Below, one piece after another: positions 60,544 to 64,000 of a DNA stretch of 64,000 nt (the first letter of the stretch is position 1; every line of letters begins with the position of its first letter). The position numbers were made by a program, and so were the translations under genes. Source of the DNA: Streptomyces sp. P3 (lineage in GTDB: Bacteria > Actinomycetota > Actinomycetes > Streptomycetales > Streptomycetaceae); the NCBI GenBank assembly GCA_016893485.2, contig JAFEKX020000001.1, forward strand, positions 1,240,001 to 1,304,000, read 5' to 3'. The notes under the pieces are model-generated. The model ran no database searches and was not told where the DNA came from. It saw nothing but the letters and a program-made list of their open reading frames with translations.

Positions 60544-62145
60544 ATGAACACTCCTCGCATGGGCCTGCCGGACCGGCTCGCCGACACGCTGAGCATGCCC
60601 GAGCAACACGAATACCTCAGACGCGCCCTCTCCCGTCGCGGTCTGCTGCGCGGCGGCGCGGTCGCCGCGACCGGGGCCGCCCTCGCGGGCACCGCCGCCG
60701 GTGCCCGCGGCGGCGACGCCCACGCTCGTACCGGGTTCCGCCGCCGCCACCGTGCACGGCTCGCTGGTCGCGCCGTTCGGCCGGCACCTCGCCTACGGTG
60801 CCGATCCGCGGACGCAGATGCGGGTGTCGTGGCAGGTGCCGCTGCCGGTCCGCGAACCGTTCCTCCGCATCGGCCGAAGCCCCCTCGACCTGAGCCACCG
60901 CATACCGGCGGAGGTGCGTGACCTGTTCACCCCGGCCGGGATCGGCAAGAGCGCGGACATCGACCAGTACTACGTGCACGCGGCGCTGGACAACCTGAGC
61001 CCCGACACGACGTACTACTACGGTGTCGGCCACGACGGCTTCGACCCGGCCGACCCGGGCGCCGCGCACACCGTGTACTCCTTCAGGACCGCGCCCAGGA
61101 CGCACAGCACCCGGCCGTTCACGTTCACCGTCTTCGGTGACCAGAACCCGAGTTACACCTCGATCGGCCTCAACGCCCTTGTCCAGGCCCAGAATCCGGC
61201 GTTCCATCTGCACGCGGGCGACATCTGCTACGCGGAGGAGACCGGGCACGGGCTGCCGGGGACGCGAGCAACTACGACGCCCGCCAATGGGATTCGTTCC
61301 TCGCGCAGATCGAGCCGCTGTCGAGCCGGGTGCCGTGGATGGTGGCGTTCGGCAACCACGACATGGAGTCCTGGTACTCCCCCAACGGCTACGGCGGCAA
61401 CGAGGCCCGGTTCACCCTCCCCGCCAACGGTTTTGACGCCTCGTCAGCTCCCGGCGCCTACTCCTTCGTGCACGGCAACGTGGGTGTGGTGTCGGTCGAC
61501 GCGAACGACGTGTCGTACGAGATCCCCGCCAACAAGGGCTACACCGGCGGAAAGCAGACCGTCTGGCTCGACAAGCGGCTCACCGAGCTGCGCGCCCGTA
61601 CGGACGTCGACTTCATCGTGGTCTTCCACCACCACTGCGCGTTCTCGACGACCAGCTCGCACGCCTCCGAGGGCGGGGTCCGCGAACAGTGGGTGCCGCT
61701 GTACGAGAAGCACCAGGTGGACCTGGTGGTCAACGGCCACAACCACGTGTACGAGCGCACCGACCCGGTCGTCCAGGACAAGGCCGTCCGCACCCTGCCG
61801 ATCGGCGGCACCCATGAGCCGACCCGTGGCGGTGTCGTGTACGTGACGGCGGGCGCGGGCGGCGAGAGCGTGTACAGCTTCCCGGTGGCCGACAGTTACG
61901 AGGGGCACGAGGACGCGGTCGACTCGGTACCGACGTACTGGACGGGCGAGGACGGCAAGGTCACCGAGAACGTCGACTGGTCCCGGGTCCGCTACACCGG
62001 CTACTCGTTCATCCGCGTCGACGTCGCTCCCGCCGCGCCCGGCCGTACGACGACGTTGACGGTGCGGGCGCTGGCCGCGACTGGCGCCGAAGTCGACCGC
62101 TTCACGGTCTCCCGCAAGGTCAGGAAGGCCGGTCACAGCCACTAG
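60544..62145 (+). CDS. Tat-exported purple acid phosphatase-like metallophosphoesterase (frame breaks)
   Basis: About 533 residues. A twin-arginine signal is visible (LSRRGLLRGGAVAATGAALA). A fibronectin type III-like N-terminal domain (MRVSWQVPLPVREPFLRIG ... YYVHAALDNLSPDTTYYYGV) precedes the metallophosphoesterase core with the five metal blocks FGDQN, HAGDICYAEE, AFGNHDMES, VFHHHCAF and NGHNHVYERTDP. This is the purple acid phosphatase layout. Frame breaks near 60715 and 61258. It probably scavenges phosphate from organic esters outside the cell. No PHO box was identified with confidence. Confidence 0.87.
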
Positions 62146-62281: not shown

Positions 62282-62293
62282 CTGGAGAGTTTC

Positions 62294-62416
62294 ATGACCC
62301 ACACCATCGAGCCCGTCGACGCGGAATTCGTGCTGTCCCTGCAGAGCATGGAGATCGAGACCCCGACCAGCTCCATCGTCTTCAGCTGCAGCTCCTGTGC
62401 CATCACGAGCTGCTGA
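62294..62416 (+). CDS. lanthipeptide precursor peptide, class III-like
   Basis: A 40-residue ORF not usually called because of its size. GGAGAG lies four bases before the ATG. The N-terminal half is an acidic leader with LSLQ at residues 14-17, resembling the LDLQ box of class III (AmfS/SapB/labyrinthopeptin) leaders, followed by SMEIE. The C-terminal 18 residues are the putative core: rich in Ser/Thr with Cys at 32, 35 and 40 and ending SCSSCAITSC. Ser31, Ser34 and Cys40 fit the S-x2-S-x5-C pattern that can form a labionin or lanthionine-dehydroalanine unit. It lies 108 bp before a LanKC gene and is separated from it by a strong hairpin. The peptide does not look like SapB, so the product may be new. 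Confidence 0.82.
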   Translation: MTHTIEPVDAEFVLSLQSMEIETPTSSIVFSCSSCAITSC

Positions 62417-62433
62417 CAGCACCTGAACACGGC

Positions 62434-62479
62434 GGTCCCGGACGGCATCGGCCACCTTGCGGTGGCGCCGTCCGGGACC
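62434..62479 (+). terminator. attenuator hairpin between precursor and synthetase genes
   Basis: GGTCCCGGACGGC pairs perfectly with GCCGTCCGGGACC, and inside it GCCACC pairs with GGTGGC around a TTGC loop, leaving a small ATCG bulge: about 19 bp of stem. It lies 18 bp after the precursor stop. A partial terminator here would give many precursor transcripts and few synthetase transcripts, as is usual in lantibiotic operons. Confidence 0.85.
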
Positions 62480-62523
62480 ACCTCCAGGTTTGAATTCACG
62501 AGGGTGAAAAGGGGCGGTCCGAG

Positions 62524-64000
62524 ATGCAGTTGCCGTGGGAGAACGTACTGCCGTACATGAACCACGATCCGCGGTGGTTCGAGGACTTCAGCCGGCGCGC
62601 GCCGAGCAGTGAGCATCTGCGCGAGTACCAGGCGGTCGTGCCGGACGCCTGGCGCACCTGGCGACGCGGTTACTGGATCATCGCCGAACCGCCGGGCGCG
62701 CCCGTGGTCGGCGAGGGCTGGAAACTGCATGTCTCGGCGACCTCGCGCACCAGTGCCGAGACCCTGCGGCGGTCGCTGCCGGTACTGCGCGACGCGGGGG
62801 TGCGCTTCAAGTTCCTGATGGATCCGATGGCGGTGCGCGAGGCCAACGGGAAGACGTTCCCGCGTGCCTCCAGCGGGAAGTTCATCACCGTCTATCCCGA
62901 GGACGACGTCCAATTCCACGCTGTAGCTGCCGAGTTGACGGACGTGTTGAAGGGCTTCGAGGGCCCGTACGTCCTGTCCGACCGCCGCTGTCCGGGCTCG
63001 CACGTGGTGTCCTACCGCTACGGCGGATTCGTCAGCCGTTTCGAGCTCAAGCCGCTCGGTCTGCGGGACCTGATGATCAAGACCCCGGACGGCTCGCTGG
63101 TCCGGGACCTGCGCACCCCTTCTGGTTCGCGCCGAGTTGGGCCCGCGACCCGTACGCTGACGCGGAGCGGGCGACGGGCACGTCCGCCTCTGCGTCCACT
63201 TCCACGGCCGCCTCTACGGCCACGAAAGGCACCGCCGGTACGAGCCAGGGCCTGCTGCACGACCGGTTCAAGGCCGAGAGCGCGCTGGCGTTCAGCAACC
63301 GCGGCGGCATCTACCGCGGCGTGGACACCGAGACGGGCGCGGATGTCGTCCTGCGGGAGGCCCGGCCCGGTGTCGAGGTGGGCCCCGAGGGCATCGACGC
63401 GGTCCAACTCCTGCGCCACGAATACGAGTTGCTGACGGAACTGGCGGACACCGGACTGTTTGTCCGCCCCGTCGCGTACTTCGAGCAGTGGGAGCACGCG
63501 TTCATCGCCGAGGAGTACATCGACGGCAGTCACCTCGGCCATCTCAGCGTCACCCACAACCCGTTGTACGGCCTGGACCTGACGCCGGCCGGACTGACCG
63601 ACTACTACGACCGGTTCAGGCTGCTGTGGCTCCAGGTCGCGGACGCGATCGCCGCCTGCCACGAACGCGGCATCGTGCTGGGCGACCTGTCCCCGACCAA
63701 CGTCATGGTCACAGCGGACGACCGTATCCGTGTCATCGACCTGGAGTCCGCCTTCCACGAAGGGCGGGGCGGGGGCGCCGGGTTGGGCACTCCCGGCGCG
63801 GTCACCCGGCGGGCGATGGCCACCGGCCAGGGCGACCGGCGTTCCGACTACTACGCGCTCGGCGGGATCATCCTGTGCTGTGTCCTGACCTGCCAGCAGA
63901 ACGACCTCGTCGACCACGCCGTACCCCTGCGCCTGCTCGACTCGGTGGCCGCCGACCTCGCGCTGCCCGCCGAACTGGTGGCGCTGATCCGGGATCTCTA
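62524..64000 (+). CDS. class III lanthionine synthetase LanKC (N-terminal part; frame break)
   Basis: The first 492 or so codons are present and the gene runs off the right edge. Residues 1-200 form the lyase domain (WKLHVSATSRTSAETLRRSL, KFITVYPEDDVQFHAVAAEL, YVLSDRRCPGSHVVSYRYGG). A Ser/Thr/Ala linker (near residue 222) leads to a Ser/Thr kinase-like domain: NRGGIYRGVD, VVLREARPG (Arg at the usual beta3 Lys position), HERGIVLGDLSPTNVMV with the catalytic Asp, and RVIDLESA. The cyclase domain, which would separate class III from class IV, is outside the window. The frame breaks near 63118 (CCCC needs one more C). The enzyme phosphorylates and dehydrates Ser/Thr of the precursor and closes thioether rings. 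Confidence 0.87.

Follow-up and report, generated by a model that had tools for sequence, protein, structure and literature searches.

Towards its end, the stretch of Streptomyces sp. P3 DNA analysed here (64,000 nucleotides, referred to as the window) holds a short open reading frame whose product is dense in serine and cysteine near its C-terminus, followed by a gene for a lanthipeptide synthetase of the LanKC type. The question raised by this arrangement is whether the two genes belong to a class III lanthipeptide locus and, if so, what such a locus would make and whether its core peptide is as unusual as originally predicted.

The precursor and its synthetase

The open reading frame at 62294..62416 (+), lanA, encodes a 40-residue precursor with a VLSLQ leader box (L14-S-L-Q17) and the C-terminus PTSSIVFSCSSCAITSC, and GGAGAG at 62285..62290 (+) is its likely ribosome-binding site. 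The original prediction of a 40-residue precursor with such a box, encoded ahead of a LanKC gene (start at 62524), is therefore borne out, as are the positions it gave for Ser31, Cys32, Ser34, Cys35 and Cys40. So is the labionin-type spacing S31-x2-S34-x5-C40, which satisfies the labionin motif S-x2-S-x(2-5)-C as it appears in the accessible text of PMC8960859. We found no cleavage site in the precursor that would mark the leader/core boundary, and the 18-residue core is a guess of the original prediction.

Searching a set of 5.8 billion proteins with the precursor returned six clusters (E 2.6e-16 to 5.7e-11, 80–98% identical), all 40 residues long. Given these six matches, lanA is not a chance open reading frame, and five of them are surely independent, the cluster of P0001 (98% identical) being one that may include the window's own protein. 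The last 17 residues are identical in seven of seven rows, that is, the window and the six clusters, and the leader varies. For three of the six clusters, the same strain has a LanKC relative on a contig of equal size (574594, 129966 and 208268). The NCBI model lanthi_III_c (NF038160) gives the window precursor 24.2 bits against a cut-off of 27, and its six homologues 18.9–23.7 bits; this shortfall may be why the four named clusters are called hypothetical proteins. Across 392 genomes of the genus, four had a precursor match at E ≤ 1, of which only that in the own genome was convincing. A profile scan of genome contigs with the precursor alignment yielded no confirmed relative, and a search of plasmids yielded no match.

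Read against P0007, an intact LanKC relative of 931 residues that served as the reference for frame reading, the synthetase gene is spread over three frames at 92–94% identity. Its first part (62524..63120, +, first frame) carries the N-terminal RamC_N lyase domain (PF25816, 177.7 bits) and is 94% identical to P0007 residues 1–199. The second part (63117..64000, +, second frame) carries the kinase domain (PF00069, 37 bits) and runs past the window end, continuing with a LanC-like cyclase domain (PF05147, 39.6 bits) to L005:5308; it is 92% identical to P0007 199–835. Here L005 denotes contig C1:1300001–1318000, the continuation past the window, such that a window coordinate equals the L005 coordinate plus 60000. 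The frame breaks lie near 63117–63120 (L005 3117–3120) and near L005 5000–5018.

All three domains (RamC_N, Pkinase and LANC_like) score over their cut-offs, in separate pieces of the protein. In each of the three pieces the class III model NF038151 outscores the class IV model NF038150 (202 versus 163, 440 versus 309 and 39.6 versus 20.9 bits), with no single piece reaching the whole-protein cut-off of 575 for NF038151. In an alignment to ThurKC (8sao), the zinc ligands C284/C330/H331 of NisC are Asp/Phe/His in this LanKC, such that two of the three are replaced, and the same columns in 34 selected relatives hold Asp in 33, Phe in 34 and His in 31. On these domains, scores and replaced ligands the original assignment to class III stands, and the cyclase-like domain, on whose presence downstream it had been made to depend, is there. 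A class IV synthetase is rejected on the lower NF038150 scores and on the zinc-ligand columns of the relatives. Our conclusion, as judged from sequence, is that the locus is real and class III. LanKC relatives at E ≤ 1e-60 were found in at least 5 of the 392 genomes of the genus, a count that is too low because only three candidates were scored per genome.

Between lanA and lanKC, stem search and folding identify a GC-rich hairpin (62434..62479, +) with a perfect stem of 13 bp and no T-run. The fold of 62417–62520 has a z-score of −4.30, and none of 200 shuffles reached a 13-bp stem; a terminator-like site was looked for between the two genes and none was found. In 12 of the 13 loci tested there is a perfect stem of 10 bp or longer, and in 10 of the 13 at most one of 200 mononucleotide shuffles reached it, the remaining loci being L021 (7 of 200), L026 (48) and L028 (2). 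The hairpin is a possible attenuator or mRNA stabiliser that would set the ratio of precursor to enzyme.

Relatives of the precursor and the genes behind lanKC

In order to place the core among its relatives, we chose 34 LanKC proteins of 902–983 residues from at least 120, some of those left unchosen being shorter, and a scan of named genomes with their alignment gave 79 loci (from the best 80 of 82). Ten loci, L017–L025 and L027, have a LanKC that is 61–70% identical in its best segment, and in one of them (L027) the LanKC reading ends at 663 codons. Their hosts are Actinacidiphila, Kibdelosporangium, Streptomyces, Fodinicola, an unclassified actinobacterium and a record titled Rhodococcus rhodnii (L018, JOAA01000026.1), a title that may be a mislabel.

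Precursor candidates in these loci were chosen by length and by their content of Ser, Thr, Cys and Arg, not by motif. Upstream of LanKC, all ten loci encode precursors (15 altogether) that have an LxLQ box and, towards the C-terminus, S-x-x-S-C-x(3-4)-x-C; two short open reading frames that have no LxLQ box, one in L019 and one in L020, were left out. In an alignment of 15 precursors, that of the window included, only Leu14, Leu16, Gln17, Ser31, Ser34, Cys35 and Cys40 are invariant, and Cys32 is present in eight of the aligned members (the window, P0006, L017–L020, L025 and L027). A motif scan of 85 loci found a match in 20 (L012 and L023 being the same locus), and the motif also occurs beside more distant LanKCs, in Stackebrandtia, Paenibacillus, a Chloroflexi bin and Calidithermus. 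One Paenibacillus class III locus (L029:5396–5845) encodes three precursors with SxSSCDxHSC cores. When NF038160 was run on 10 relative precursors, that of L026 scored over the cut-off, six scored under it and three gave no match; the L030 precursor passes the threshold of a different model, lanthi_III_a.

The original description of the core as unusual holds in part. Two core strings are absent from the open-access literature text that was searched, and six strings taken from relatives, together with the motif, returned only unrelated papers there, such that the core is uncharacterised as far as open-access text goes. It is not unique, however, since it belongs with many similar cores in a broad family.

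The gene that follows lanKC encodes an MFS protein (PF07690) and is present in 10 of the 10 relative loci; next comes a luciferase-like gene, which is found in seven of them. No luciferase-like gene turned up in L025 or L027, and the L024 locus ends about 180 bases past its MFS match, too short to show it. The genes overlap by 4 bases at both junctions (ATGA for lanKC/MFS, GTGA for MFS/luciferase-like), and the LanKC stop codon falls within ATGA or GTGA in 9 of the 10 relatives, as read from the LanKC side of each junction. Such junctions suggest a single transcript. A regulator further downstream, which we take to be SARP-like, was rejected as a mark of the gene set: it matches nine loci, among which only L017 and L025 belong to the ten.

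The luciferase-like protein belongs to TIGR03558, the MsnO8 family. In this genome it is read as two halves of 194.8 bits (N-half) and 55.2 bits against a cut-off of 166.95, the N-half also matching PF00296 at 112.7 bits, and in four relatives TIGR03558 scores 304–328 bits. TIGR03564 gives luciferase-like proteins of the set 26.5–33.9 bits, far from its cut-off of 234, and the best F420 model reaches 60.4 bits. With TIGR03558 best and F420 models far lower, an F420 cofactor is rejected at the level of the family. Among solved structures, 4us5 is the nearest in sequence. A flavin reductase gene adjoins the luciferase-like gene in L020, and in Streptomyces sp. SID8352 (L025) one follows the MFS gene (L025:10486–11001), no luciferase-like gene being detected there; a flavin reductase beside the gene set favours FMN as the cofactor.

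It is important to note that luciferase-like enzymes also occur elsewhere in the genus. At least 12 of the 392 genomes have a match at E ≤ 1e-60 (five candidates scored per genome), 11 of them only 42–45% identical, and the own genome falls below this threshold because its gene is in pieces. In a tree, a 100/100 branch separates the operon enzymes from 11 generic relatives from the genus. The row of the present locus, which is half a protein, is 51–67% identical to operon relatives and 50–54% to generic rows. Since these ranges overlap, the link of the luciferase-like gene to the operon rests on its position and on the tree.

Predicted pathway, ring pattern and state of the genes

Taken together, we give a probability of about 0.7 to the reading that precursor, LanKC, predicted MFS exporter and luciferase-like protein form a class III set that is predicted to make a small cross-linked peptide. 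From the genes, their order, their domains and their conservation, which are observed, we infer the chemical steps and product roles as follows. LanKC would bind the VLSLQ leader box, phosphorylate core Ser/Thr and then eliminate the phosphate, and would add the thiols of Cys to the dehydro residues in a zinc-independent step, as leader binding, phosphorylation, elimination and zinc-free cyclisation are described for ThurKC in the accessible text of PMC10604976. The peptide would next be the substrate of the MsnO8-type flavoenzyme, with oxidation (for example of a thioether) a more likely role than reduction of a spare dehydroalanine. The leader would be cut by a protease encoded elsewhere and the product exported by the MFS protein.

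How the core would be cross-linked, for which the original prediction inferred overlapping rings, is a matter on which our preferred answer is a guess, held at somewhat less than even odds: a labionin formed from Ser31, Ser34 and Cys40, plus a Cys32–Cys35 disulfide. Such a pattern uses all three Cys, and labyrinthopeptins (PMC10676316) and paenithopeptins (PMC8960859) are known to combine a labionin with a disulfide, as given in the accessible text of both sources. In L017 and L027, moreover, Cys32 has no nearby upstream Ser/Thr to join. Counting against the labionin with a disulfide are the 7 of 15 members that do not have Cys32, in which Cys35 would be left unpaired. Those members fit the main alternative, which we hold only slightly less likely: that the same class III set forms two overlapping lanthionines, Ser31–Cys35 and Ser34–Cys40, with Cys32 as a surplus thiol in the SCSSC branch. 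The core positions invariant in the 15 precursors are two Ser and two Cys and no others, the minimum that two lanthionines need. However, this pattern leaves Cys32 unused, with no nearby upstream Ser/Thr for it in L017 and L027, and it is not among the outcomes of the Sx2Sx3C motif given in the accessible text of PMC7268733, which are a labionin, or a lanthionine between the first Ser and the last Cys. Returning to the labionin with a disulfide, a more elaborate proposal, which we consider unlikely, is that this subgroup has its own MsnO8-type flavin oxygenase oxidising the SCSSC polycycle (for example to a sulfoxide), the CxxC disulfide lying inside the labionin ring.

The LanKC, MFS and luciferase-like genes are all frame-broken in this assembly, and this could have either of two causes. 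The first is decay, the set being a group of pseudogenes that have lost their intact frames in this strain, as two breaks in LanKC together with those in the MFS and luciferase-like genes might indicate; if the breaks are real, the locus is dead in this strain. The second is sequencing error. The neighbouring open reading frames 60701–61846 and 61330–62145 look like one gene split across two frames, presumably that of a phosphoesterase. Outside the window, the same genome carries a second class III LanKC (L006:2239–4740, contig C1:1126238–1128740), which is frame-split too, and downstream of it a precursor (L006:4840) with an MALLDLQ leader and an SLLSC/SVLLC core, which we take to be SapB-like. 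Since the split neighbours, the split second LanKC and a genome completeness of 74.69% (9.88-Mb contig) point to indel errors throughout, and since the LanKC pieces are still 92–94% identical to intact P0007, we consider decay improbable and sequencing errors the likely cause of the LanKC frame breaks.

Comparison with known systems

A SapB/AmfS-type morphogen locus, as a class III synthetase in a Streptomyces-like genome might suggest, is highly improbable, given that NF033212 gives no match to the window precursor up to E = 1 and finds one of its six homologues at 6.6 bits against a cut-off of 25, that the export gene here is an MFS gene, and that the genome has a separate class III locus with the precursor we take to be SapB-like (L006:4840). 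SapB and AmfS are described as class III peptides of Streptomyces in PMC13380574. Among synthetases, the best solved relatives of P0007 are those of ThurKC (PDB 8sam/8sao/8sap, 219 bits). The zinc ligands are lost in both enzymes: Ser726/Phe770/Asp771 of ThurKC correspond to those of NisC (PMC10604976), and the LanKC described here differs in keeping His where ThurKC has Asp771.

Among precursors, the lanthi_III_c family (NF038160) shares with the window precursor the LxLQ box and an SxxSCxxxSC-type core, and the L026 precursor of Stackebrandtia albiflava scores 34 bits against the cut-off of 27. The window precursor differs in its score of 24.2 bits, in its extra Cys32 (SCSSC) and in belonging with another synthetase clade, the L026 LanKC being 46% identical. 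Labyrinthopeptins have a core longer than that of the window precursor, with two labionin motifs. They are class III peptides with a labionin and a disulfide, as proposed here (PMC10676316). The paenithopeptins of Paenibacillus (Pre_24), which we compared by description, are class III with one S-x2-S-x(2-5)-C motif, as here; their leader is cut at a Q-A-(A/V)-(D/E) motif that is absent from the window precursor, and the ptt cluster has a methyltransferase, none having been noticed here (accessible text of PMC8960859). With its two invariant Ser, its two invariant Cys and a third Cys in one branch, the core pattern of the present group is left undecided by known ring rules. What determines labionin formation is stated as an open question in PMC10604976, and these short natural core variants could probe it; among class III products are peptides of antiviral, antinociceptive and morphogenetic activity (PMC13380574, PMC10676316).

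The pairing of LanKC with a luciferase-like enzyme has a precedent in the LanKC/LanJC pairs reported from daptide clusters, in which LanKC lies beside a luciferase-like protein (PF00296) and conversion of Ser to D-Ala is predicted (PMC10036551). The daptide reductase is listed in the accessible text as TIGR03564, an F420 family; what sets the present locus apart, with respect to open-access text, is the TIGR03558 family in its place together with a lanthipeptide precursor. A luciferase-like reductase is also described in a cluster that has neither LanKC nor known Lan synthetases (PMC7794033). Like LanJC of birimositide, a proposed dehydroalanine reductase of a class II system (PMC7268733), the luciferase-like protein of this locus is encoded in a lanthipeptide cluster, as its PF00296 match and the overlap of its gene with the MFS gene indicate. 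LxmJ of lexapeptide, also luciferase-like, is a reported dehydroalanine reductase of class V that uses F420H2 (PMC8498797). Set apart from these two by description and family, the enzyme of this locus belongs to a flavoenzyme family other than that listed for known luciferase-like RiPP reductases, in what appears to be a coherent and uncharacterised class III group.
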